Shown here: one piece after another, positions 26,676-54,156 of the stretch | How the letters are laid out: each line of letters opens with the position of its first letter | Numbering within the stretch: position 1 is the stretch's first letter | NCBI GenBank assembly: GCA_019218365.1 | Contig: JAHUUJ010000005.1 | Location: forward strand, 124,001-188,000 | Direction: 5' to 3' | Source of the DNA: Actinomycetaceae bacterium TAE3-ERU4 | GTDB lineage: Bacteria > Actinomycetota > Actinomycetes > Actinomycetales > Actinomycetaceae | Length of the DNA: 64,000 nucleotides | The notes under the pieces: generated by a model | Databases searched by the model: none | Seen by the model: the letters and a program-made list of their open reading frames with translations, nothing else | What the model was told of the DNA's origin: nothing | Made by a program: the position numbers and the translations under genes

Positions 26676-27006
26676 TCGCAGTTACCCTACCTTTCTACCT
26701 CATTCCAAGCCTCACCCCAGCAGGTGAACTACACGCTTGTTATTTATAATCCTGCGCCTTACCTTAGTGCATTTTCAAGGTCTTGGCACGCTACAAATAC
26801 AAGTCAAATTAAGAGCGCTAGCGACTTTTGTTTGTTTATCCGCCGATAAACACGCCCAAAAAGCCATAATGTGAGTTAGTCCACAACGGTTTATTTTGGT
26901 CGCGCCACCCTTGATTCATCTAAGAGAGAGTGATTAAAGCAACCCTGTCCTACCCTTAGCACTCATTAACACAAATCTAAGGTAAGCTAACGCGAGGAGG
27001 TTGTTC
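26676..27006. other. Divergent intergenic region between whiB and the pyruvyltransferase fusion
   Basis: 331 bases without a gene. On the minus strand, a TATAAA element (rc near 26742-26747) about 65-70 bases before the whiB ATG is a candidate -10, which would give whiB a leader of about 60 bases. On the plus strand a TTGATT element near 26910 and a TTAAAG element near 26935 may form a promoter. The plus-strand gene has a GAGGAGG ribosome-binding site at 26994-27000. An 8-bp inverted repeat lies at 26833-26852. I see no small gene or RNA structure beyond this. Confidence 0.5.
26833..26852. repeat. Inverted repeat upstream of whiB
   Basis: Perfect 8-base arms, TGTTTATC and GATAAACA, around a CGCC centre. 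Its place midway in the divergent region and its size fit a dimeric regulator's operator. A palindromic CGCTAGCG lies 15 bases to the left. No regulator can be assigned. Confidence 0.4.
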
Positions 27007-29562
27007 ATGCACTTTTTGCTACTGACAGATATTGGTCAACGTATCTACCACGTAGGCGACGAAGCCATCGGTATACAGTCCGCAAAATACATACAGGAAC
27101 GAGGGCATGTACCAATTCTCCTGACCCGAGACCTTCATGCTTCCCACCGCGACTCCCAACTCGCTAATTTTTCCTTAGCACGTGCTTTTCCCCTTCCCCA
27201 AAACCTAGGCGTAAGTCATCACGCTTATAAGTGGAGCCAGGAACTAGCTAAACAATTTCTCACTTTCCCCTCAGCTCCTCGACCAAGCGAAGAATCAGCC
27301 GCTGCTCTGTACGATTTAGTGCAGCAAGTACAAGAAAGTGATGGAGTAATTCTCGGCGGCGGAGGCTCGTTTAATTCTGAATACGGCTGGTTGTTCAAAG
27401 AACGTCTCCTCCTGGGAAAAATCGCACAAATGGCTGGTAAGCCCCTGGTGATTACGGGACAGACTCTCGGTCCGGCACTCAGCAAAACAGACCTTCAAAT
27501 AGCTGCCGAAGTGTTTTCCCATGCTTGTTTAATAGGTTTTCGAGACAGCACATCACTCCGCCTTTTCGAACGGCATTTCCCTCACTTAAAAGCACATCTA
27601 TCTCTTGATGATGCCTCCTTCTTCGCCATTGCTGAAGACACCCCCGAGAAAAAAATATCCAAAGAAGATTCTCCCCTAGTAGTTAGCCTAAGTTCTAGCG
27701 GATTTTCTAATTCGGTAGATACAGAGATAAAAAACTACGCTTCTTTAATAGATGGTTTTTACGAGGCTACTGGACATCCTTCCCTCATGGTTCCGCACAT
27801 GTCCCTGCGACGTAGCTACACAGGAGACGAAGAGTTCCACTATCACCTAAAGAACAGCCTCTCATCACCTTCCCTTTTCCTCGAAACCGAAAGTGCCACT
27901 CCTTCTGCACAGCGAATCAACCAAGCCGCAATGGTACTAACTTCGCGCTTCCACCCCTTGATTTTTTCTCTTTCCCGAGCCGTACCGGCTCTTCCGATAA
28001 GCAATAACACCTATTCCCATATACGTCTCCAAGGAGCACTGGAGAATTGGGGATTAGACAACCAGTTGCTAACTGACGCAAAAGATTTATCTACTCCAAC
28101 TGCCCTCGACAGGATGCTAGAGGTATGGGAAAAACGTGATGCCATAACAGGTTTCCTGAATGAACAGCGTCATTACCGGCAACAAGAAGTAGGAAAATGG
28201 TGGGATCGGATTATTGCTTCCCTTACCCAAACAAACTTACCTCAACCTAATAACTTGTGTACTTTCCAGGCCCCACAAATTATTCCTGCCGACGTTAGCT
28301 ACAATCTTTCCACACAAATCGATAACCTATCAAAGCATTTTTCCGAACTTGAAGAAGAATTAGAGTCATTGACAACTCCAATAGAGGAAAACGAAAATCC
28401 ATTTGTACTGCAACCTCTCGATGAGTACATTCAATCTGATCGCCGAAAAGGAATTCCGATGCCGCTTCAGTCAATAGATAAAACTCCAATAAACGATTTT
28501 CACCCGCGGGTAACAGTAATCGTTAGGACCAAGAACCGGGAAAACTTCCTTCGCCGTGCCCTTGCCGATATCACCGCACAGACTTACCGGCCTTTAGAGG
28601 TGATAGTTGTAAACGATGGAGGATCTGCCACCGCGGTAGATGAAGTGGTGTCATTTTTCAATCAAGAAAAAATCATCACCGTTATCCATAACGAAACCAG
28701 CCGAGGAATGGAACATGCCTCCAATCAGGCACTTAAATGCGCCAACGGAAAATATATTGCAATTCATGACGATGATGACACCTGGGAAATCAGTTTCCTA
28801 AAACAGTGCGTAAGCTACCTCGAAGAACACACCGCGGCTGCTGCCGTAAGCGTACGAACCGAAATTGTCTACGAAGAAGAAAAAGAAGACGGTCAAATCA
28901 TTGAAACAGGTCGAGCTCCCGCCTGGCCTGAGATTCAAGCAATCAGTCTTTCTGCGCTCTTACATGCTAACCAGTGCGTTCCTATCTCATGCCTGTATAA
29001 AAAAGACGCTCTGGAGGCTCTGGGGGGCTTTGACGCCTCACTTCCAGTAGTCGGTGACTGGCAGATGCATCTGCGTTTAGCACGAAAATATGAATTCGGG
29101 TTCATTGATGGTTCCCCCCTAGCTTTTTGGCACCAGCGCCCACATTCACTAGGAAATAGCGCAAATTCAATTTTTGCAGCAGACAAGTTACACAAACATT
29201 TTGACACTGTAGTACGTAACCAAGTTGCTCGCCAACACCTAAGTGACTCCAACTACGCTCTGGGTCTTCTTCTTACCCAAAATGTCGCCAGATATCGCGA
29301 AGATGTACAAAAACACTTAACAGACACCCAGCACGAAGTTTCCGTCCGTCTCGAAGAGCTAGAAAGAAATCTTAGGGACCTGCAAAAACAACAACAGGAA
29401 CTTGCAAAAGTTACCGATGAGATTGCCCGTAATTTGGAAACCCTAATAAATAAAGACGAAGCAAATATACAAAAAATGGATTGGCTCTTATATAAAGCTG
29501 ACAGAAACTCATTATTTTCCTACTGCAAAATAGCGGTGAAAAGAATCTTAGGGAAAAAATAA
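27007..29562 (+). CDS. Polysaccharide pyruvyltransferase fused to GT2 glycosyltransferase
   Basis: About 851 residues from ATG 27007, which has a GAGGAGG site six bases upstream; a TTG two codons earlier is less likely. The N-terminal domain (about 1-380) is of the polysaccharide pyruvyltransferase family: GDEAIGIQSAKYIQERGH, GVILGGGGSFNSEYGW, KPLVITGQTLGP and LTSRFHPLIFSLSRAVPAL. The central domain (about 499-760) is a GT2 transferase: VTVIVRTKNRENFLRRAL, VIVVNDGGSATAV and the IHDDDDTWE metal site near residue 586. A coiled coil (about 768-825) and basic C-terminus follow. Such a protein could both add a sugar and decorate glycan with ketal pyruvate. It faces the galactan cluster and shares its terminator. 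Confidence 0.85.
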   Translation: MHFLLLTDIGQRIYHVGDEAIGIQSAKYIQERGHVPILLTRDLHASHRDSQLANFSLARAFPLPQNLGVSHHAYKWSQELAKQFLTFPSAPRPSEESAAALYDLVQQVQESDGVILGGGGSFNSEYGWLFKERLLLGKIAQMAGKPLVITGQTLGPALSKTDLQIAAEVFSHACLIGFRDSTSLRLFERHFPHLKAHLSLDDASFFAIAEDTPEKKISKEDSPLVVSLSSSGFSNSVDTEIKNYASLIDGFYEATGHPSLMVPHMSLRRSYTGDEEFHYHLKNSLSSPSLFLETESATPSAQRINQAAMVLTSRFHPLIFSLSRAVPALPISNNTYSHIRLQGALENWGLDNQLLTDAKDLSTPTALDRMLEVWEKRDAITGFLNEQRHYRQQEVGKWWDRIIASLTQTNLPQPNNLCTFQAPQIIPADVSYNLSTQIDNLSKHFSELEEELESLTTPIEENENPFVLQPLDEYIQSDRRKGIPMPLQSIDKTPINDFHPRVTVIVRTKNRENFLRRALADITAQTYRPLEVIVVNDGGSATAVDEVVSFFNQEKIITVIHNETSRGMEHASNQALKCANGKYIAIHDDDDTWEISFLKQCVSYLEEHTAAAAVSVRTEIVYEEEKEDGQIIETGRAPAWPEIQAISLSALLHANQCVPISCLYKKDALEALGGFDASLPVVGDWQMHLRLARKYEFGFIDGSPLAFWHQRPHSLGNSANSIFAADKLHKHFDTVVRNQVARQHLSDSNYALGLLLTQNVARYREDVQKHLTDTQHEVSVRLEELERNLRDLQKQQQELAKVTDEIARNLETLINKDEANIQKMDWLLYKADRNSLFSYCKIAVKRILGKK

Positions 29563-29615
29563 TAGAAGTTGGTGTGGGGACAAGATAAAACATCTTGTCC
29601 CCACACCAACTTCTA
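29563..29615. terminator. Bidirectional hairpin terminator
   Basis: A perfect 24-bp stem (left arm 29563-29586, right arm 29592-29615) with a 5-base AAAAC loop. The GC-rich core GTGGGGAC sits mid-stem. It starts one base after the stop of the fusion gene and ends 31 bases before the convergent GlfT1-like gene's stop. It should terminate transcription in both directions. Confidence 0.85.
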
Positions 29616-29646: not shown

Positions 29647-30543
29647 CTAGTCAATAGTCTTGGGGAAACGCTTACGCGGACGGAAAACTAGTCCCTTAGC
29701 CGCACACCAAACCAGCTTGGCACGGTTTTTACGCGATACCCCCGAGCCGTGCATCTGCTTAATCATGTTCTCCGCTAAACCAGCTAGGAGAGTAAGCGAA
29801 CGTAGAGTTATAGCTCCCGAGACCTGATTACGCACACCGCGAGAGAACTTCCACATGTTGGAATCATTCACATCACCAAAGTTAACACCACGGTTTTGAG
29901 CCAAAAGGTGATCGACTTTGGAATCTGGCACGTAAATTCCCGGAGAATATTTAGACAAACGAGTAGTGTACTCGGCATCGTCAAACCAAATGAAGTATTC
30001 CTTATAGGGAAGTCCCATTGCCGCCGCAGCCTCACGTGAGACCATACACGAGACGAAAGAGCAGGACTTAACATCAATCCAAGGTTTACCTGCAACTAGT
30101 GGACGAGACCAATCCCAAGTAGGTTCCGGGGTATTCATTTCACATAGATTTCCATCGGTCCAAAGCACAGATGAGCAAGAGAAAGAAGGCGTCTTCCCAC
30201 GGTATTCACGAGCCTCAATCACCCCATTTTCCAGATGCTCCAGGGCGTCCAAATGCGGAACAGTGTCATCATCCATCAACCAGAACTGGTCATATCCAGC
30301 TTCGAAAGCAAGCTCAATACCACGGCTAAACCCACCGGCTCCACCCGAGTTAACTCGTTCATGAACGATTCGAGAGGGAGTCTTCAGCTCTAGGGAATCC
30401 AAAAATTCCTTAGTGTCATCCGTAGAAGCATTGTTAATAATCAGAATCTGATCCAAGGGACGAGTCTGGTTATCCAACGCGGCAAGCGTCTTTTCTAATA
30501 GGGCGCGACGGTTAAAAGTAACCACGACAGCTGCAATTTTCAT
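29647..30543 (-). CDS. GlfT1-like GT2 glycosyltransferase (probable galactofuranosyltransferase)
   Basis: About 298 residues from ATG 30543, one base after the upstream gene's stop; the longer reading runs back into that gene. The GT2 fold opens IAAVVVTFNRRALLEKTLAA, then ILIINNASTDDT, the VNSGGAGGFSRGIELAF motif, and the WLMDDDTVPH metal site. The SGGAGGFxxG segment plus MDDDT is characteristic of GlfT1/rhamnosyl-acceptor galactofuranosyltransferases. Neighbouring glf and the ABC exporter match the mycobacterial galactan genes Rv3781-Rv3783. It probably adds galactofuranose to a lipid-linked primer on the cytoplasmic face. Acceptor unknown. Confidence 0.75.
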   Translation of the reverse strand: MKIAAVVVTFNRRALLEKTLAALDNQTRPLDQILIINNASTDDTKEFLDSLELKTPSRIVHERVNSGGAGGFSRGIELAFEAGYDQFWLMDDDTVPHLDALEHLENGVIEAREYRGKTPSFSCSSVLWTDGNLCEMNTPEPTWDWSRPLVAGKPWIDVKSCSFVSCMVSREAAAAMGLPYKEYFIWFDDAEYTTRLSKYSPGIYVPDSKVDHLLAQNRGVNFGDVNDSNMWKFSRGVRNQVSGAITLRSLTLLAGLAENMIKQMHGSGVSRKNRAKLVWCAAKGLVFRPRKRFPKTID

Positions 30544-30544
30544 C

Positions 30545-32221
30545 TCATTTAGCCTTTTTCTGTGAATCTGCCGCGCTCTTGTCGGCCTCTTTATAGCGAT
30601 CAGCAAAGAACTCTGAAGCACTCTGCAAAGATTGTAGGCGAGTAGCCATTTCTAATTGATCTTCAAGTAACGCATTAAAAACTTCGGGGTTCTTCAAGAT
30701 TTTAGAAACCACATGTACCGCCTGTTTGCGGAATGGCAGCGGCATCGCTGGTAAAAGCGCACCCGCCGGAACCACCGATCGCTGGGAACCGACATCTGCT
30801 GAAAGAACCAAAACTCCCGCAGCAGACGCCTCAATTGTAGTTAGGGTAAGTCCTTCGTTATCTGAAGAAATCAACAAAATATCAACTGATTCCATGAAAG
30901 TTGGAACCGGGCCCCAAGAACGACGCTCGATTACATTTTCCAGTCCGAGATCCTTGATTCTTTGAGTAGTGTAGGCATCTAAGTCACCCGAGCCTTGCAT
31001 CAAGAACTCAACCTGGTCACCAAACTTGTCATGTAGAGCCTTAACTGTCTCTACAAACAGGTAGGGGCGCTTTTGCAAGGAAAGCCGTCCCAGGAAACCG
31101 ATACGCAAGGGCTTAGAAGAATCACGAGCGCTTAGTTCCTTTGAAATTACCTGCTCGTGCCCACCCATTCGAGTAAGCGGTCGGTAAACCACCTTTTCCG
31201 GATTAGCCCCAGCCTCCAACAAATAAGTATCACGCAAAAGCGGAGAAATCACGTGATGAAGATCAATTGCATCACTCTTATGACGCGAAAGAGTAACGAA
31301 TCCACCGCCGCGGTGCTCTGTAATATGCGTGGTGTCATCAATCACTACCTGCGGCAAAGCCAACTTGATGTCTCGTGCCGCATTGTAAGCACTAAACGAG
31401 TGGTGAATGTGTATACGTCCAACACGATATTTCTTTAACATCCGAGGAATGAAAACACGCTGGTCGTCACCATCATCAAGGGCATGAGTAGTAAACATGA
31501 CTACATCGGAGCACTCCTGTGCGCGCTTAAACATGCGCTGCGGGGCAATCCTATCGAAAGTCATAATTACCCGATATCCCGCTTCTTTAGCTAAACGAGC
31601 TTGTTCAAAAGCCCAGCTTTCCGCGCCGCCAGCCTCTGCCCAGTGCATTGCAATCCACATGCACTTCATGTCCGGCTCGTAGGGCATGATATTAAACCAA
31701 CGGAATACCGGCTCCGGATAGTATCCCCACTTCGCGTTACGAGACTGTCGGTAAGTATCCAGCAACAATGGAGTACGCTTATAGGCTTCAGAGTATACCT
31801 TCGACAAAACACGCTTAAGACGCCCATCACGACGCGCAAAGGTAAAGTCACCTCGTCCCTCTAGTAGTTCTAGCGTGGGCAGAGCCAAAACCTTGCGCTG
31901 TTGTTTTATATCAGATGATACTTCCGGGCCAGACGAACGAATCACAATTTCTCCGTGGAACCCTTGTGAATATCCGCTAGCAAAATCATAAGAGTACGGA
32001 GTAGATAGATTCAGCATTGGTTCCGAGTCCTGCAGATGAACTTTCAGGACAACTTCCGCACGGGGAATGGTAATCGTCAGCGGCAAGATAGCAGCGACCA
32101 TCCACTCAGTGCCCAGAGCTTCAATTACTTTTGCAGCCTGCTCGTCTACCCTAACCGATACGTCATCGACTTCTAGACGTTTGGTTAACTGCGCAGACAG
32201 CTCTTTCAGATTTTCCATCAT
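30545..32221 (-). CDS. GT4-family glycosyltransferase with N-terminal extension
   Basis: About 558 residues, starting ATG 32221 (MMENLKEL) with an AGGAAG site that overlaps the upstream stop. An unassigned N-terminal region of about 190 residues precedes a GT-B fold. The acceptor-side domain includes MKCMWIAMHWAEAGGAESWAFEQARL. The donor-side domain carries LRIGFLGRLSLQKRPYLFVE, the binding motif SSDNEGLTLTTIEASAAG and LVLSADVGSQ. The GAESWA and E-x7-E pattern mark a retaining GT4-type enzyme. It lies between the ABC transporter and the GlfT1-like gene and is likely to build the same exported polymer. Confidence 0.8.
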   Translation of the reverse strand: MMENLKELSAQLTKRLEVDDVSVRVDEQAAKVIEALGTEWMVAAILPLTITIPRAEVVLKVHLQDSEPMLNLSTPYSYDFASGYSQGFHGEIVIRSSGPEVSSDIKQQRKVLALPTLELLEGRGDFTFARRDGRLKRVLSKVYSEAYKRTPLLLDTYRQSRNAKWGYYPEPVFRWFNIMPYEPDMKCMWIAMHWAEAGGAESWAFEQARLAKEAGYRVIMTFDRIAPQRMFKRAQECSDVVMFTTHALDDGDDQRVFIPRMLKKYRVGRIHIHHSFSAYNAARDIKLALPQVVIDDTTHITEHRGGGFVTLSRHKSDAIDLHHVISPLLRDTYLLEAGANPEKVVYRPLTRMGGHEQVISKELSARDSSKPLRIGFLGRLSLQKRPYLFVETVKALHDKFGDQVEFLMQGSGDLDAYTTQRIKDLGLENVIERRSWGPVPTFMESVDILLISSDNEGLTLTTIEASAAGVLVLSADVGSQRSVVPAGALLPAMPLPFRKQAVHVVSKILKNPEVFNALLEDQLEMATRLQSLQSASEFFADRYKEADKSAADSQKKAK

Positions 32222-32223
32222 TT

Positions 32224-32952
32224 CTACTTCCTCAAAACCTTTACGGCTTCTGTACACGGACCGGAATAAATAACCTGTCCCTTTTCTAAAACTATCCCTC
32301 TGTCACACAAGCTTGCAACCATATCCAAATCATGGCTCACAATCACCAGGGACTTGCCCTCCGAACGGAGCTGCTTAATCCGCTTTATGCACTTGCGCTG
32401 GAATGGCTCATCACCGACGGCCAAGATTTCATCAATTAAAAAGATGTCAGGGTTAGTATGTACTGCAACTGCAAAAGCTAAACGCAAAAACATACCCGAA
32501 GAATAGAACTTAACTTCCGTATCTATAAACTGTTCGATTTCCGAAAATGCCACGATGTCATCATAGGCAGCATCTATTTCAGCCTCGGTCATCCCCAAAA
32601 TTGCCCCGTTAAGGTAGACATTTTCCCGCCCTGTTAAGTCAGGGTGAAAACCGGCACCAACTTCAATTAAACCAGCTATCTTACCGCGCAAACGAATAGT
32701 TCCCCGGTCAGGGCGCATAACCCCGGAAATCAATTTCAACATAGTTGATTTTCCCGAACCGTTAAAACCTAAAAGAGCAACAGCTTCCCCCGGCTTAACA
32801 TCAAAAGAAATATCTTTTAGCGCTTCGAAAGTATCAACCATTTTGCCGCGTTTGCCCGTAAGTGACCAAACCAGCGTGTCTTTCAGCGTATGCGTACGCC
32901 GAAGCATAAAGATTTTCGAGACGTCCTCAACTTCAATTACCGAATTACTCAT
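32224..32952 (-). CDS. Polysaccharide ABC exporter, ATP-binding subunit (Wzt/RfbE-like)
   Basis: 242 residues from ATG 32952. An AGGAG site lies 5 bases upstream, and the ATG overlaps the permease stop (TGATG). Walker A is LLGFNGSGKSTMLKL, the signature YSSGMFLRLAFAVAV and Walker B FLIDEILAVGDEPFQ, followed by the H-loop VSHDLDM. The YSSGM signature and AVGD turn are typical of O-antigen and teichoic-acid exporters. It lacks the C-terminal carbohydrate-binding domain of some Wzt proteins, so export should not depend on a capped chain end. It pairs with the adjacent permease. Equivalent to Rv3781. Confidence 0.9.
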   Translation of the reverse strand: MSNSVIEVEDVSKIFMLRRTHTLKDTLVWSLTGKRGKMVDTFEALKDISFDVKPGEAVALLGFNGSGKSTMLKLISGVMRPDRGTIRLRGKIAGLIEVGAGFHPDLTGRENVYLNGAILGMTEAEIDAAYDDIVAFSEIEQFIDTEVKFYSSGMFLRLAFAVAVHTNPDIFLIDEILAVGDEPFQRKCIKRIKQLRSEGKSLVIVSHDLDMVASLCDRGIVLEKGQVIYSGPCTEAVKVLRK

Positions 32953-33820
32953 CACAGCTCCTGCGCAAAACGCCCGTCAAGACGGCGGAAGAACCAGTCC
33001 CCCAGCACCAGAATGAAAAGGCACAATACCGCGGCAAAAATGGACCACTTAACAATAGAAACGGGGAACTCGCTATTTACCCCCGCAGTTGGCCCCCAAA
33101 ATACTCGGTGGAACATCATCACAATCGGGGTAATTGGATTAGCCATGTAAATCTTCCACCAGAAAGTTCCCTCAGCAATCCGAAAAACGTCCTGCCAGCG
33201 ATACAGTACAGGCGACGCCCAGGTAACAATCATCAAAATCAAATCAACAAAGTTCTCCGCATCACGGAACATGACATTAACTGCGGAAAATAATAGGCCT
33301 AGCCCGAGAGCTAAAGCAGTAATCAGCAAGAAAGCAAAAATACCCAAGCCTATTTCGTAGATTCCAGGACGCCACCCGTAATACAAAGCCCCAAGTATCA
33401 AAATCAGCAGCTGAGGCACAAAATGCACGAACGCTACCGCCACGGATGAAACAGGAAATAGCTGGCGTGGAAGATAAATTTTCTTTACCAGAGCCGAGTT
33501 TCCCACTACCGAACGCGTAGTGTTAGCAAATACCTCGGAAAAATAGTTAATAACTACCACTCCGGAAAAAAGATAAACAACGTAGTTTTGGATTGCTTTA
33601 TTTTGGGCCATAAAAACACCCAAAGCTACATAAAAGACCATGAACTGCACAGCCGGTTTAGCATACGACCAAAGCATTCCCAATATTGAGCCACGATAGC
33701 GAACTCGAAGTTCTTTATGAACCAAAAGATTCAACAAATAGCGATGACGAATGACCTCAATAAGCGACGGGGATTTACCCGGCACCCAGTAATCATTCTT
33801 GCTGGCTGCCTGCACTCCCA

Positions 33821-33821
<1 letters not shown>
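32952..33821 (-). CDS. Polysaccharide ABC exporter, permease subunit (Wzm/TagG-like)
   Basis: A 289-residue ABC-2-type permease with about six membrane segments. The N-terminal RHRYLLNLLVHKELRVRYRGSILGMLWSY is the amphipathic lead-in of Wzm/TagG/RfbD proteins, and the conserved NPITPIVMMFHRVFW lies near the C-terminus. With the ATPase it would flip a lipid-linked glycan from the cytoplasm. Its start overlaps the glf stop by one base, and its stop overlaps the ATPase start, so glf, permease and ATPase are coupled. Equivalent to Rv3783. Confidence 0.9.
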
Positions 33822-35008
<1,187 letters not shown>

Positions 35009-35102: not shown

Positions 35103-35948
35103 CTATGTGCGTTTACGCAAACGCAACGAAAGTCTATAAACCATCCTACGTACTCCCGTAGGAACAAATCTATACCCCCCACGAACCGCTAGATTTCGCA
35201 TAAATTGGGGCCAAGAAATAATTCCAGCCCGCAACATTCTAGTTTGCAAAGCCCATTCACTACGTAAAATGCGTAATCCGCCACGCCGCTTATAAGCCCC
35301 GGCCCCAACTCGATACAGGACTAAAGGCTCCTGCAAATTAGTAGCTTTAACTCCCGCACTAATCATCCTGGCAAACAACCAATAGTCTTCCATCAAGTCC
35401 AGATGCTCATACCCACCGCATTCTGCCACGACCTCGCGATCATAAACCACAGAGGGGTGGTTAAACGGGTCACGAAATGTTAGCAAGTGGTGAATTTTGT
35501 CTTCATCAGCCGGCTGCAAACGAATATCACCTAATTCAGATTCTTCACACGCGAATTCCCGAATAGCACTTCCTACCAGCTGGTATCCCTGCTCCATGAG
35601 GGGAATCTGCCTAGAAAAACGCTCTGGCAAAGAAATGTCATCAGCGTCCTGGCGAGCCACAATCCGGTATTTACAGCGACTAAGACCAGCTTCAAGGGCA
35701 CGTGCCAAACCCCCGTTTACCGGCAAAGTAACCAAAGTGGTAGGCACTCCCCCCGAGAGAAGTTCAGCATTTTTTAATACGTTCGCTAAAGAATCTCCAA
35801 CTGGGCCATCTTGCACAATCACCAGCTGAGAAGGGACAAGCAACTGTTCCCTAGTAACCGAAACTATTGATCGCTCCAGAAAACTAGAATCATCCCCCGC
35901 ATACACAGGCAAGAGGACACTAAAGTTCCCCGTTTTACTCGCCTGCAC
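35103..35948 (-). CDS. GT2 glycosyltransferase (AmsE-like)
   Basis: A 281-residue family-2 transferase. FSVLLPVYAGDDSSFLERSI opens the domain, then LVIVQDGPVGDSL, the metal site IVARQDADDISLPERF, NHPSVVYDREVV and the LMEDYWLFARM acceptor-side motif with the likely catalytic acid. This is the small soluble AmsE type that adds one sugar to lipid-linked oligosaccharide. Start GTG 35948 overlaps the upstream GT2 gene by 14 bases, so the two are coupled. A 94-base gap separates it from glf. Donor and acceptor cannot be told. Confidence 0.8.
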   Translation of the reverse strand: MQASKTGNFSVLLPVYAGDDSSFLERSIVSVTREQLLVPSQLVIVQDGPVGDSLANVLKNAELLSGGVPTTLVTLPVNGGLARALEAGLSRCKYRIVARQDADDISLPERFSRQIPLMEQGYQLVGSAIREFACEESELGDIRLQPADEDKIHHLLTFRDPFNHPSVVYDREVVAECGGYEHLDLMEDYWLFARMISAGVKATNLQEPLVLYRVGAGAYKRRGGLRILRSEWALQTRMLRAGIISWPQFMRNLAVRGGYRFVPTGVRRMVYRLSLRLRKRT

Positions 35949-36903
35949 AGCCTGACTCCCGTTCTAAAGCCGCAACCTGCTGGGAAACCGGTGTTGAAGC
36001 GAATAATTCCATATTGCTAGATGGCCGGGAAAGCCCCTCTTTCAAGCCCAGCGCCCCCGCCGCCAACAAGGTCTTTCGATCAGGTGATTTTACAAAAGTA
36101 CGCACCCAACGAAGCAGTGTTGAAAAGACATACATTCCCCCCTCGAAAGGGTTAAAAGGAAAGAAACGCAAATAAGTCCAAAGCTTATTGCGAACCTCAA
36201 ACCGGAAACGCTCCCCCGGATCAGCATCTGATGCACCAAGTTTCTTCGTCAAATGCCTTACTACAGAGGCCGGAACATACAAACCAACCCGATGACGAAG
36301 GATTCGTGCCGAATACTCAAAGTCATCATTCCAAAGGAAGAAAGCGGCCCTAGGTAATCCCTGACGTCTAATTTCTTTTGCCTCAACCAGAATCGATACA
36401 AAAGACGAAGTACGAATTTGCCTTGCCGCAACCTGTCGAGCATGCTCGTGATATTGCCGAGCCAACCCTACTCTCGTTCGTGGACAGTTCATAGGGTGCT
36501 CTGTGCCATCGCGCCAAATCGCTCTAGAAGCCAATAATGCAGGCTTACCTGGATAACTTTCCGCCGCGCTCAAAAGCTCAGCTAAAGCACTAGGTGTAGG
36601 GATAGTGTCATCATCCATAATCCACACCCAATCAAGGTCTGGATACTTATCGAGAGCATATGCAATTCCTGCAGAGAAACCACCAGCCCCGCCTGTATTA
36701 GTGGGTAAAGTAACAACGTCAGTTACAGTCTGTGAATTAGCTAAAACCTCCGCCGTGGCATCTTCCGAAGCATTGTCTACCGCCACCACCGCAAAAGGCT
36801 GATGTGTCTGCTGCGAAATCCCTTCAATGCAGCGGGATAAAAGTTCAGCCCGGTTATAGGCGACCAGCACCACCGCGACCTTCATAGATGACATCATTTC
36901 CAT
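35935..36903 (-). CDS. GlfT1-like GT2 glycosyltransferase (second copy)
   Basis: About 322 residues. The first codons carry four methionines and the true start may be the seventh codon (36885, MKVAVVLVAYNRAEL). It has the same diagnostic features as the gene at 29647-30543: NTGGAGGFSAGIAYAL and WVWIMDDDTIPTPSAL, plus FFLWNDDFEYSARI. The two proteins are clear paralogues that bracket the exporter cluster. Possibly one acts as the initiating and the other as the second galactofuranosyltransferase, or they use different acceptors. The 3' end overlaps the AmsE-like gene. Confidence 0.75.
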   Translation of the reverse strand: MEMMSSMKVAVVLVAYNRAELLSRCIEGISQQTHQPFAVVAVDNASEDATAEVLANSQTVTDVVTLPTNTGGAGGFSAGIAYALDKYPDLDWVWIMDDDTIPTPSALAELLSAAESYPGKPALLASRAIWRDGTEHPMNCPRTRVGLARQYHEHARQVAARQIRTSSFVSILVEAKEIRRQGLPRAAFFLWNDDFEYSARILRHRVGLYVPASVVRHLTKKLGASDADPGERFRFEVRNKLWTYLRFFPFNPFEGGMYVFSTLLRWVRTFVKSPDRKTLLAAGALGLKEGLSRPSSNMELFASTPVSQQVAALERESGCAGE

Positions 36904-40314: not shown

Positions 40315-40385
40315 TGCTTTCCCCCTTCCTCGTTTTGCAGCTAATAGAGTCTAGCCCAGTGGATAGTGAGGAACAAAGTTTGTCA

Positions 40386-40391
40386 TATAAT
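40386..40391 (+). promoter_or_regulatory. Consensus -10 element for a leaderless epimerase mRNA
   Basis: A perfect TATAAT. The ATG of the epimerase follows after 7 bases (40399), so transcription would begin at or next to the start codon. There is no Shine-Dalgarno and no good -35 hexamer 16-18 bases upstream. Confidence 0.55.
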
Positions 40392-40398
40392 TTTGGGT

Positions 40399-41466
40399 AT
40401 GAAGGTACTCTCAGTCGTTGGGGCTCGCCCCCAATTTGTTAAACTTGCACCCATCGCCCACGCTTTGAAAAAGGCCGGAGCACAACACGTGATTGTCCAC
40501 ACCGGGCAGCACTACGACCGAATGCTCTCAGATGTTTTCTTTAGCGATTTACAGATTCCCGCGCCAGATGAGCATTTAGGAATTGGATCGGCCAGCCACG
40601 GCCGTCAAACCGGAGCCATGCTTGCCGCAATGGATGAGGTTTTAGAAAAGCACAATCCCGATTGGGTTTTGGTTTACGGAGATACGAACTCTACGCTCGC
40701 TGCCGCCCTGAGTGCAATTAAGCTTCATATTCCAGTTGCTCACCTAGAAGCTGGGCTACGTTCATTTAATCGGGATATGCCCGAAGAACATAACCGCGTT
40801 CTTACAGACCACTGTGCTGACTTACTACTGGCCCCAACCGAGGTAGCGGCAGCACACCTGGCAACGGAGGGGCTGGCTTCACGCTCTGTCATAGTCGGAG
40901 ACGTAATGACCGATGTTCTTTACCAAACACGCGATGCAGTTACCGGTCAAGCTAACCCAATTACCCAAGAGCTATCATTTGCGCCCGGCACCTATTCTTT
41001 AGCGACAATTCACCGTCCGGCTAATACAGATACGAGAGAACAGCTTCAAGCTGTGGTAGATAGCTTGAAGGCAATTGATCACCCGGTAGTTTTGCTGGCG
41101 CACCCTCGACTACGGGCAAAGGCAAATGAACATAAAATTGAACTTTCCGGGGGAAATTTGCATCTGCATGAACCGCTTGCTTACCCCCAGCTAGTGCTGG
41201 CGGTAAGCGGAGCACGCGGCGTGATTACGGACTCGGGGGGTCTGCAGAAAGAAGCTTTCCTCCTACGTACCCCCACTACGACAGTGCGCACCGAAACAGA
41301 ATGGGTTGAGACCGTCGAATTGGGTTGGAACATTTTGGCATACCCTGGCGAAGAGTTAACCCGTGCGGCTTCGCGCCCACGTCCTACAGATACTGCGGCC
41401 GCCCCCTACGGAGATGGTCACGCGGCACAGAGAGTCGTCCAAGAGCTATCACGGAATCTGCGATAA
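40399..41466 (+). CDS. UDP-N-acetylglucosamine 2-epimerase family, WbpI type
   Basis: 355 residues from ATG 40399. It belongs to the WecB superfamily, but its signature segments are those of the WbpI-like branch that acts on UDP-2,3-diacetamido-2,3-dideoxy-glucuronate: VVGARPQFVKLAP, the HTGQHYDRMLSDVFF segment, GSASHGRQTGAML, VYGDTNSTLAAAL and EAGLRSFNRDMPEEHNR. The product would be the manno isomer. TDSGGLQKEAFLL near the C-terminus completes the UDP site. It is a single-gene plus-strand unit with a probable leaderless transcript, and it ends flush against the convergent GT4 gene. No gene symbol is given because substrate choice within the branch is inferred. Confidence 0.85.
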   Translation: MKVLSVVGARPQFVKLAPIAHALKKAGAQHVIVHTGQHYDRMLSDVFFSDLQIPAPDEHLGIGSASHGRQTGAMLAAMDEVLEKHNPDWVLVYGDTNSTLAAALSAIKLHIPVAHLEAGLRSFNRDMPEEHNRVLTDHCADLLLAPTEVAAAHLATEGLASRSVIVGDVMTDVLYQTRDAVTGQANPITQELSFAPGTYSLATIHRPANTDTREQLQAVVDSLKAIDHPVVLLAHPRLRAKANEHKIELSGGNLHLHEPLAYPQLVLAVSGARGVITDSGGLQKEAFLLRTPTTTVRTETEWVETVELGWNILAYPGEELTRAASRPRPTDTAAAPYGDGHAAQRVVQELSRNLR

Positions 41467-42730: not shown

Positions 42731-44320
42731 ATGCCAGATTTACTACTTGATCTTTCCTACCATGAGCAAATAAACGAAAAATTCTATTTTTGGGATGGCC
42801 TGGGCGTAAACCAGCCTGATGAGATTAAAGACGCTTGTGATTTGTCAAAATTACGGGGACATTGGTCAGCTATTTTACTTTCTGATAACGAAGTCAAACT
42901 GTGTGCTGACGCTTTTCGTTCACGGCCCCTCTACTACGCTCTAAGCGCTACTGAGATTCTTGTTACAGACGATTGGTTTAAAGCTATCGAATACGTCGGA
43001 TACACCCTAGACGAGGCTGCCTACGAACAATTGGCAATGGCGGGCTTTGTTTTTGGGGAAGCTACCTGTGCAAAAGGAATCTGGCAGGTTCCCTCGGGAC
43101 AAACCGTAAGCATAAACCTTGATACCTGCGAGGTCTCACATAGTTTCGCGCGCACACCTCTGTTTGTTAAAGAAAAAGAACAAAGCTCAGCACAGTTCAT
43201 CACCGCCTTAGATAAAGTCTTTAATACGGTGATGAAAAGAGCCGTGGACTCCTGTCCCCCAAACTCAAAGATTCTTCTTCCGCTTTCTGGCGGCTATGAT
43301 TCGCGTCTCTTGGCCGCTTGGTTCGCCAAAAACTACAACGGCCCAATTTTGACTTTTAGCTACGGTAAACCGGGCTCGCGGGAACTGGAGATTTCAAAGC
43401 AGGTTGCGCAAAGTCTAAACCTGCCCTGGCGGGGAATAGAAATGACTCCGCACGAAGTACACAAAGAATGGGGAAAACCCCAAACTGCGCAATTCCTCCG
43501 CGAGGCCTTTAGTGGTTTTTCCCTCCCCCACGTACAAGATTGGTATGCGCTTACAATTCTTAGTAAACAGGGCCTTTGCAAGCCCGGCGACACGGTATTC
43601 CCCGGACACACTATTGTTGATAATTTCCATAACTTAGAGCTTTTAGATAGTGAGCCAATCAAAGCGCGCGATGTTGCCGCAGCTATCTTTCACAAACACT
43701 GCGTAATGCGTCCTCGGATACATACAGATAAAGGGGAATTAGCTCTCAAGGTTTACCTACACGATTTTCTCTCCGAGGTAGGTTTTGAGGGAACTGCCCG
43801 CAGCGTACAACGCTGTATAGAAGGATTTAATTTCTGTGAACGCCAGACTAAATATATAAATAACTCCATGCGCGCCTACGAACATTTTGGATTACGTTGG
43901 GCAGTCCCCATGCTAGATGTTGAGTTCACTGAAACATGGTTAAGCGCTCCCCTTGGACTAACCATAAAGCGAGGCACCTACGAACGTTGGATCGATTCTT
44001 TCTTTGCCTCCCTCACCCACGCTTCGCCGGCAGTCTACCAAGGAATTGCCCATAGACTTCCCCCAAATCTTCGTAGAGGCCTAAAGAAAGTAGCCGCAAC
44101 AGCTCGAATTGATAAACTTGCTACCCGCACTGTGCAGGCTAGGACATGTCTAAACCATCCACTTGGATTTGAACTATTTTCCGGTAAACTATCTCGCCCG
44201 GAACTGACGATGCTATACCTCTTTGGACAACCGGGCAACGGCCCATGGGTAGATCAGTTTATCAAAGATACCTGGCACCCAGATTTACAACTTTTTACTC
44301 CCCTTGAGGATGCCGATTAG
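42731..44320 (+). CDS. Asparagine-synthase-like protein lacking the glutaminase cysteine
   Basis: A 529-residue protein. The C-terminal two-thirds is an adenylating PP-loop domain with LLPLSGGYDSRLLAAWF (about residue 185) and ILTFSYGKPGSRELEISKQV. The N-terminal region keeps the shape of the asparagine synthase glutaminase domain (LRGHWSAILLS, SRPLYYAL) but begins MPDLLL, with no cysteine at position 2, so glutamine hydrolysis is not expected. Proteins of this group in O-antigen loci (WbpS type) amidate uronic acid sugars. The uronic acid genes in this window make that role attractive. An AGTAAGGA site precedes the ATG. The end overlaps the convergent GT4 by 26 bases. Confidence 0.78.
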   Translation: MPDLLLDLSYHEQINEKFYFWDGLGVNQPDEIKDACDLSKLRGHWSAILLSDNEVKLCADAFRSRPLYYALSATEILVTDDWFKAIEYVGYTLDEAAYEQLAMAGFVFGEATCAKGIWQVPSGQTVSINLDTCEVSHSFARTPLFVKEKEQSSAQFITALDKVFNTVMKRAVDSCPPNSKILLPLSGGYDSRLLAAWFAKNYNGPILTFSYGKPGSRELEISKQVAQSLNLPWRGIEMTPHEVHKEWGKPQTAQFLREAFSGFSLPHVQDWYALTILSKQGLCKPGDTVFPGHTIVDNFHNLELLDSEPIKARDVAAAIFHKHCVMRPRIHTDKGELALKVYLHDFLSEVGFEGTARSVQRCIEGFNFCERQTKYINNSMRAYEHFGLRWAVPMLDVEFTETWLSAPLGLTIKRGTYERWIDSFFASLTHASPAVYQGIAHRLPPNLRRGLKKVAATARIDKLATRTVQARTCLNHPLGFELFSGKLSRPELTMLYLFGQPGNGPWVDQFIKDTWHPDLQLFTPLEDAD

Positions 44321-52794: not shown

Positions 52795-54156
52795 ATGAGT
52801 GATTCCCTCCCCTCTTATGCCCCGAAAAATCCACGTCGTCGGCCGCGGCCAAGCGATCTTTCCCGGCCGAGTTCATCCGCTACCGGCAAGGCAGCTACAC
52901 CGACTCGCGCTGTTTCTTCACCTCAGCCATCGGAGCAAAAAGAAACTCCGATAAAACCAATTCCTTCACGCCGCAGTGCATTGGCGAAAGATGATTCTAA
53001 ACAAGCACGGCACGTCCGTGCGGTATCAGCTTCATCTAAAACCTCTCCGCACCCGGAAGGAAGGACCCCGGCGGCGCTCCCTTCTTTCCCGCCTCGCAAT
53101 TCCTCCGCTCCAGATCAGACGATACCTTCCTTTTCCCCGACAGTTTCCCCAGCGCAACCGCGTATTTCTAATTCTTCCCCTCCGCCTTCCCAGCCTCGCG
53201 CCAAACGAAAAAAGCGCAAGTTTCCCATTGCCCTTTCGCTATCTATGACACTATTGCTAGTTCTATTGATAGCCTGGCCTGTCTTTCTTTACACCCTGGT
53301 GGGAAACCACCTGGGACGAGTAGATGCTCTCTCCACATTTCCTAACACTCCCGGAGTTACCTATCTAATTGCTGGATCAGACGCGCGCGGGGGTGAAGGC
53401 GGTGCGCCTCAGGACGGCACAACGGGAGAGCGTACAGATTCTCTTATGCTTATTCACAAAGCAGAAAACGGAAAAACCGTAGTAGTTTCTCTTCCCCGTG
53501 ATACCGATGTAGAAATCGCCGACCATGGCCACAATAAATTAAATTCTGCGTATGCTTTCGGTGGCCCCAAATTGCTAGTACAAACTGTTGAAAACTTAAC
53601 CGGCTTGAAGGTAGACCATTTTGTCCTCGTTAAGATGGGCGGGGTTGCGCAGATTGTTGATGCTCTTGGCGGGGTTAATTTATGTCTTGATTACAACGTT
53701 AAAGACCCTAAGTCGGAACTTACTTGGAAAGCCGGTTGCCATAATGCAAATGGGCACACAGCCTTAGCGTTTGCACGAATGCGCTATCAAGATCCGCGCG
53801 GAGACATCGGGCGACAAGAACGCCAGCGACAAGTAATTTCAAAGGTAGTGAAAAAGGCGTCATCATCTTCTGTCCTTCTTAATCCTCTCACTACCTATGA
53901 GCTGGCGATGGCCGGTTCTAAAGCGCTAGATGTGGATGATTCAATGTCCCCCTATGCTTTAGCTAAGCTAGCTTTTGCCTACCGTTCCGCTGCAAACCAA
54001 GGGCTTCTCGGCACTCCCCCGATAGAAAGTCTCAACTACCGTAACGGGCATGGTTCTTCCATAAAATTAGATTCCCAAAAAACCCCTGAATTCTTCAAGA
54101 AATTGAAAAATGGAACGCTTGAAAAAGACGATCTAAATGTATTTACCGGTAAATAA
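52795..54156 (+). CDS. LytR-CpsA-Psr (LCP) family glycan ligase
   Basis: A 453-residue protein with a disordered Pro/Ser/Arg-rich cytoplasmic N-terminus (about 1-140), one membrane segment (FPIALSLSMTLLLVLLIAWP, about residue 142-162) and an extracytoplasmic LCP domain (about 190-340). LCP motifs are YLIAGSDAR, GERTDSLMLIH, VVSLPRDTDVEI and DPRGDIGRQERQRQV, including the conserved arginine and aspartate residues. LCP enzymes attach lipid-linked glycans to peptidoglycan or protein. As the last gene of the GT2, DUF2304, LCP operon next to the glycan cluster, it is the best candidate for anchoring the glycan made here. In mycobacteria a comparable LCP gene lies in the same region (Rv3267). Confidence 0.92.
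   Translation: MSDSLPSYAPKNPRRRPRPSDLSRPSSSATGKAATPTRAVSSPQPSEQKETPIKPIPSRRSALAKDDSKQARHVRAVSASSKTSPHPEGRTPAALPSFPPRNSSAPDQTIPSFSPTVSPAQPRISNSSPPPSQPRAKRKKRKFPIALSLSMTLLLVLLIAWPVFLYTLVGNHLGRVDALSTFPNTPGVTYLIAGSDARGGEGGAPQDGTTGERTDSLMLIHKAENGKTVVVSLPRDTDVEIADHGHNKLNSAYAFGGPKLLVQTVENLTGLKVDHFVLVKMGGVAQIVDALGGVNLCLDYNVKDPKSELTWKAGCHNANGHTALAFARMRYQDPRGDIGRQERQRQVISKVVKKASSSSVLLNPLTTYELAMAGSKALDVDDSMSPYALAKLAFAYRSAANQGLLGTPPIESLNYRNGHGSSIKLDSQKTPEFFKKLKNGTLEKDDLNVFTGK

Follow-up and report, generated by a model that had tools for sequence, protein, structure and literature searches.

The window (the whole stretch of DNA that was analysed, 64,000 nucleotides) contains a gene whose product combines a polysaccharide pyruvyltransferase (PVT) domain with a GT2 glycosyltransferase domain. 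At a probability of about 0.6, this protein is a bifunctional counterpart of TagA and CsaB, which would add a sugar to a wall glycan and pyruvylate it for recognition by SLH domains. This reading draws on (i) the two domains and their catalytic residues, (ii) their repeated linkage in other genomes, (iii) the co-occurrence and adjacency of SLH genes and (iv) the SLH proteins encoded in the window's genome. In the proposed scheme, the GT2 domain would move one sugar from a nucleotide sugar onto a lipid-linked polysaccharide of the cell wall; this would probably be the polymer with galactofuranose that the neighbouring Wzm/Wzt transporter exports. With PEP as substrate, the PVT domain would convert a sugar of that polymer, most likely the newly added one, into a pyruvate ketal; by analogy with Paenibacillus alvei, this step would precede export and attachment, and a LytR-CpsA-Psr protein encoded in the window is a candidate for joining the glycan to peptidoglycan. 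The resulting anionic sugar would be the ligand of SLH domains, so that the cell would retain its SLH-bearing surface proteins (GH16, GH20 and Amidase_2). Searches of the open-access literature turned up no description of a PVT-GT2 fusion, nor of a connection between this fusion and SLH genes.

The gene is a stop-free frame of 851 codons whose start is preceded by GAGGAGG (Table 1), and it is the sole PF04230 gene of the 1.70-Mb genome. A Pfam search of the protein identified PS_pyruv_trans (PF04230; residues 16-334, E 7.8e-28, 98.6 bits versus a cut-off of 25.3) and Glycos_transf_2 (PF00535; residues 503-631, E 6.9e-27, 94.9 bits versus a cut-off of 23.3). With scores far above the cut-offs and catalytic signatures in both domains, the original prediction of two complete domains in a single open frame was borne out, and every motif that it quoted is present in the translation. 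The C-terminal coiled coil that it proposed corresponds, in the structure model, to a helix at residues 751-831, which is followed by a basic C-terminal helix (836-849); a shorter helix (429-455) lies within the linker in a low-confidence model.

Table 1. Features of the window discussed in the text
Feature	Position	Strand	Remarks
Fused PVT-GT2 gene	27007..29562	+	851 aa; ATG start, alternative TTG at 27001 possible
PVT (PF04230) domain	27007..28206	+	Residues 1-400; HxGD H15, G17, D18; R179-x3-S183; R314-F-H316; R340
Linker	28207..28500	+	Residues 401-498; middle part resembles the C-terminal end of the stand-alone sister-species PVT
Possible internal ribosome-binding site AAAAGGA and in-frame ATG (M485)	28446..28461	+	Sequence inspection only
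GT2 domain	28501..29256	+	Residues 499-750; VND537, DDDD588-591, D684
C-terminal helix, probable coiled coil, with basic amphipathic end	29257..29559	+	DSSP helices 751-831, 836-849
Bidirectional terminator	29563..29615	.	Perfect 24-bp stem between convergent genes
GlfT1-like GT2	29647..30621	-	Under GlfT1 cut-off
GT4 glycosyltransferase	30545..32257	-	Profile search
Wzt-type ABC ATPase	32224..32955	-	243 aa, lacks C-terminal glycan-binding domain
Wzm-type ABC permease	32952..33821	-	
UDP-galactopyranose mutase (glf)	33821..35008	-	TIGR00031, 324.4 bits vs equivalog cut-off 303.75
GlfT1-like GT2	35935..36903	-	Profile search
UDP-GlcNAc 2-epimerase	40366-41466		Present in window
LytR-CpsA-Psr protein	52795..54156	+	Candidate ligase of glycan to peptidoglycan (putative role)

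Comparison with related genomes indicates that the frame is beyond chance, because sister species encode both halves, as two genes, with 36-55% identity. In two species of the same genus (G001 and G003), the corresponding locus, flanked left and right by the same genes as in the window, encodes two proteins of 507-509 and 331-361 aa; their genes lie in one frame, with a stop codon and some 21-24 bp between them. The linker of the fused protein can be aligned with the tail of the sister-species PVT, which is what loss of the stop codon would produce. Judged from this side-by-side arrangement in two sister species, the fusion in the window's lineage is real and recent. A third species of the genus (G002) has neither the PVT nor SLH proteins.

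The in-frame stop of both sister species would also fit an assembly artefact, i.e. a stop codon lost by sequence error between genes that are separate in the organism. This is extremely improbable, since the linker is open throughout, with no remnant stop, and the architecture recurs in 17 other genomes. The close spacing of the sister genes, parted by just the stop and these few base pairs, is likewise compatible with two proteins made from the fused gene, a separate GT2 being started at 28459 (AAAAGGA-N6-ATG), which would render the fusion functionally minor. The in-frame ATG and its ribosome-binding-like stretch lie close to the ancestral GT2 start, of which they are a possible relic. However, one inspected match is weak evidence and fusions persist stably over whole clades elsewhere in the order, so we consider the synthesis of two proteins improbable.

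The fusion had originally been regarded as exceptional, which the wider comparison contradicts: it recurs across the Actinomycetales, where we identified 17 further fusions (16 PVT-GT2 loci and one GT2-PVT locus, in G118), and PVT-WecG/TagA fusions occur in the same phylum. Within the order the two domains are paired as fused PVT-GT2, as fused GT2-PVT, as adjacent genes in either order, or as separate genes of one cluster. The trees of the PVT and GT2 domains show similar clades, on which the PVT-GT2 fusion needs at least three state changes, or four counting the reverse fusion. A single fused clade was rejected in a tree test that included the window row (p-AU 0.0004); without that row the value was p 0.054, and the remaining fusions could thus share one origin. 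By these trees, the 17 further fusions could belong to more than one lineage, with fission as a possible alternative for the clades other than that of the window. Since the two domains have been joined repeatedly, sugar addition and pyruvylation are suggested to be coupled steps.

The reverse fusion of G118 (L105:9115-11940) encodes a protein of 941 aa, with GT2 first and PVT second, and an SLH-amidase gene lies 103 bp away. A PVT of the same subfamily is found in G302 (L123:2001-5450); its frame of 1149 aa also contains a GT2 region, which is a different one and matches weakly, and an SLH-trimer gene is situated 83 bp away. In other Actinomycetota, CsaB-WecG/TagA fusions (PF04230-PF03808) of about 590-600 aa were observed (L121:1104-2870 in G454 and L122:1117-2925 in G440), and PF04230 frames as long as these are present in about nine genomes of the phylum sample. 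Such natural fusions are a precedent for a PVT joined to a glycosyltransferase, as in the fused protein. Other long PF04230 frames of the phylum sample were set aside, as most of them extend by chance through GC-rich DNA, have architectures without a GT2 or are CsaB-TagA fusions. No relatives of the fused protein were detected in the viral contigs searched, and the plasmids searched yielded GT2 domains only, none reaching 80% query coverage.

Across 31 relatives from several families, the PVT-domain residues H15, G17, D18, R179, R314, H316 and R340 do not vary, and position 183 is occupied by Ser (25) or Thr (6). All 31 relatives have HxGD in place of NxGD, the motif reported to be conserved among known PVTs, while R179xxxS183 and H316 conform to the motifs of characterised enzymes, whose PEP-site residues have been named (PMC10435577, PMC4872226, PMC10629545). 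Binding of PEP and acceptor has been demonstrated or modelled for R148, R306, H308 and K328 of CsaB (PMC10435577) and for D106, R217 and R337 of Pvg1p of Schizosaccharomyces pombe (PMC4872226). According to the motif alignment, (i) R179 is the counterpart of CsaB R148 and Pvg1p R217, (ii) R314 and H316 are the counterparts of CsaB R306/H308 and Pvg1p R337/H339, (iii) D18 is that of the motif Asp of characterised PVTs and (iv) R340 stands at the position of CsaB Lys328, for which the substitution K328R gives an active enzyme with tighter PEP binding (PMC10435577). From these residues we infer PEP-dependent pyruvylation by the PVT domain. Its score against the CsaB equivalog TIGR03609 (68.6 bits versus a cut-off of 213.1) indicates that it is not a CsaB ortholog.

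The HxGD motif could also point to a divergent GT-B enzyme, e.g. a second glycosyltransferase, in which case two sugars and no pyruvate would be added. Consistent with this, the top fold matches of the PVT model, a low-confidence one (3 sequences, pTM 0.62), are many GT-B glycosyltransferases and UDP-GlcNAc 2-epimerases, with Pvg1p and WbbZ absent from these top matches, and the subfamily profile reaches Pvg1p at just E 0.43. Against it, a GT-B-like fold is common to known PVTs, the weak Pvg1p alignment spans precisely the PEP-site motifs, and the PEP-binding positions are all invariant or conservatively replaced (CsaB R207 lying outside the mapped set). The PF04230 score and the association with SLH proteins argue in the same direction, and a divergent glycosyltransferase therefore has little chance of being the correct assignment.

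The GT2 domain, whose model has a pLDDT above 90 and matches solved GT2 enzymes at E about 1e-15 in fold comparison, retains the nucleotide-binding Asp (VND537); all 12 GT2 sequences compared share DDDD588-591 and D684, the presumed catalytic residue. In three genomes (G030, G058 and G013; L040, L041 and L043) this GT2 lies near glf or the w23071 locus/polymer cluster and no PVT is present; in G030 and G058 it is duplicated in tandem. Since these genomes keep the GT2 without any PVT, its function is apparently independent of pyruvylation.

Convergent with the fused gene, the opposite strand carries, in order, genes for a GlfT1-like GT2, a GT4, Wzt, Wzm, glf, two further GT2 enzymes and a nucleotide-sugar dehydrogenase. 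The 84 bp between the convergent stop codons contain a perfect 24-pair inverted repeat (dG -46.1, z -11.2, matched by 0/200 shuffles), which confirms the predicted position opposite a galactofuranose gene set with a common terminator. The suggested functional link to glf and ABC export held in part: the cluster adjoins the fused gene and is kept in two genomes of the same family (G057 and G029), where unfused PVT and GT2 genes flank it on opposite sides, but in Dermabacteraceae glf is inseparable from ancestry. In the sister species G001, a GlfT2-like galactofuranosyltransferase gene (L032:13973-15868) is located between Wzm and glf, whereas the window has the GT4 gene instead, and the polymer backbone may thus differ within the genus.

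This neighbourhood also bears on a reading in which the non-reducing end of an ABC-exported galactan is pyruvylated for charge or antigenic variety and not for SLH proteins, in the manner of WbbZ, which caps Gal in Klebsiella pneumoniae O1/O2a (PMC10629545). As in that organism, the gene adjoins glf, Galf transferases and a Wzm/Wzt exporter that lacks a glycan-binding domain. Moreover, glf is present in all of the PVT+GT2 genomes checked, G029 possesses PVT and GT2 with no detectable SLH, and pyruvylated galactan is known from an actinobacterial wall, that of Promicromonospora (PMC6801904). Capping of this kind leaves the co-occurrence with SLH proteins and the operon-like SLH neighbours (see below) unexplained, and in Dermabacteraceae glf and the Wzm/Wzt homologs do not lie near the fused gene; we regard it as possible, but rather unlikely.

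A search for SLH domains (PF00395) in a 396-genome sample of the order, with stratification of the genome counts by family as the sole handling of relatedness, gave 86 positive genomes. SLH proteins are encoded by 22 of the 23 genomes with the PVT and a GT2 partner versus 8 of the 25 with the PVT alone (p 3e-6) and, order-wide, by 30/48 genomes with the PVT versus 56/348 without it (p 5e-11). The same pattern was seen within family f13 (5/5 versus 0/14), family f5 (6/6 versus 4/28) and the window's own family (101 sampled genomes; 6/7 PVT genomes versus 3/94 others, p 5e-7), where the three positive genomes lacking the PVT are all assemblies no more than 85% complete. In f11 (Brachybacterium-type), genomes are mostly SLH-positive regardless of the subfamily PVT (11/12 versus 17/21, p 0.39), and SLH proteins are common in Dermabacteraceae with or without it. 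Another PF04230 gene is carried by 37 of the 44 SLH-positive genomes without the subfamily PVT; about a quarter of the phylum sample has PF04230, as counted at a stricter threshold than the 37/44.

Adjacency was assessed at 25 loci with fused or adjacent genes, using a profile derived from the SLH repeats encoded close to PVT-GT2 genes. In 15 of these loci, a gene for an SLH trimer lies immediately next to the PVT-GT2 gene or genes, at most 300 bp away, usually directly upstream on the same strand and mostly with gaps below 140 bp; four of the neighbouring genes examined encode Amidase_2 with SLH. There is no SLH gene within 10 kb of the Dermabacteraceae fusions L045 and L046, nor any near the fused gene in the window, for which the nearest are on other contigs. 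The window's genome codes for five SLH proteins (two with GH16, one with GH20, one with Amidase_2 and a fifth of another kind) with N-termini resembling signal peptides and a total of 14 repeats, one match being partial. Gly29 and Arg43, which contact pyruvate in the SLH domains of SpaA (PMC6081394), are kept in the repeats, whereas RxAM stands in place of TRAE and Phe, in most cases, in place of Trp13. The association with SLH proteins, the strongest clue and one that the original prediction had missed, provides a likely purpose for the pyruvylation. The genome of G003 contains more than 100 SLH repeats in 2.2 Mb, an unusually rich SLH surface proteome.

Among known systems, the proposed function most resembles that of CsaB and TagA of P. 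alvei and Bacillus anthracis, where a wall polymer is modified successively by an inverting glycosyltransferase and a PF04230 enzyme. In P. alvei, lipid-linked GlcNAc receives a ManNAc residue through TagA, and this residue is then pyruvylated by CsaB (PMC6030368). There the pyruvylated sugar binds SLH trimers and the genes are linked to SLH genes, a likeness that we propose for the fused protein. The two systems differ in the glycosyltransferase (GT26 versus GT2), in the PVT motifs (NxGD and Lys versus HxGD and Arg340), in the CsaB score given above and probably in the sugar. WbbY and WbbZ of K. pneumoniae O1 (PMC10629545) are similarly a glycosyltransferase and PVT pair associated with a Galf-containing, Wzm/Wzt-exported glycan, but they are encoded by separate, divergently transcribed genes, serve a Gram-negative LPS, lack a connection with SLH proteins and include two GT modules in WbbY. 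WbdD and WbbB (PMC11231755) share with the fused protein the presence of terminating and glycosyltransferase modules in or near one chain, an ABC-exported glycan and a coiled coil. Their coiled-coil ruler was rejected as a model, because the long helix of the fused protein is C-terminal to both domains and not between them. Pvg1p has equivalent Asp, Arg and Arg-x-His residues and pyruvylates Gal in a PEP-dependent manner, but it is a stand-alone eukaryotic enzyme whose sequence match is near chance.

With regard to the acceptor, ManNAc was rejected as the sugar of all members and is probably not the acceptor in general, because UDP-GlcNAc 2-epimerase is absent from 8 of 25 PVT+GT2 genomes; the epimerase is not enriched with PVT+GT2 (17/25 versus 27/34, p 0.37). 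In family f13, glf tracks the PVT (5/5 versus 2/14, counted from listed rows). Co-occurrence with glf was discarded as proof of a Galf polymer, since the gene exceeds its cut-off in 221 of the 396 genomes of the order and is near-universal in Dermabacteraceae, the family with most fusions. Our guess, by analogy, would be galactose, as it is the commonest pyruvylated sugar in databases and is pyruvylated in the Promicromonospora galactan (PMC6801904). For the order as a whole, we tentatively suggest, with more doubt than confidence, that Actinomycetales have a distinct subfamily of GT2-coupled PVTs, fused more than once and in both orders, which may make a pyruvylated SLH ligand other than ManNAc, perhaps Gal on a Galf-based, ABC-exported polymer. 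If this holds, SLH anchoring would have a second route, independent of CsaB.

SLH domains occur widely among Actinobacteria. To our knowledge, the characterised pyruvylated SLH ligands come from Firmicutes, their sugar being ManNAc, provided via TagA and CsaB. If the ligand sugar is added and pyruvylated by one enzyme, as is probable here, a defined gene and glycan become available for study, and these would reveal whether recognition by SLH domains depends chiefly on the pyruvate or on the sugar too. The window also encodes, within the glycosyltransferase cluster, a 529-aa protein (42731-44320) with weak Asn_synthase/QueC-like matches.
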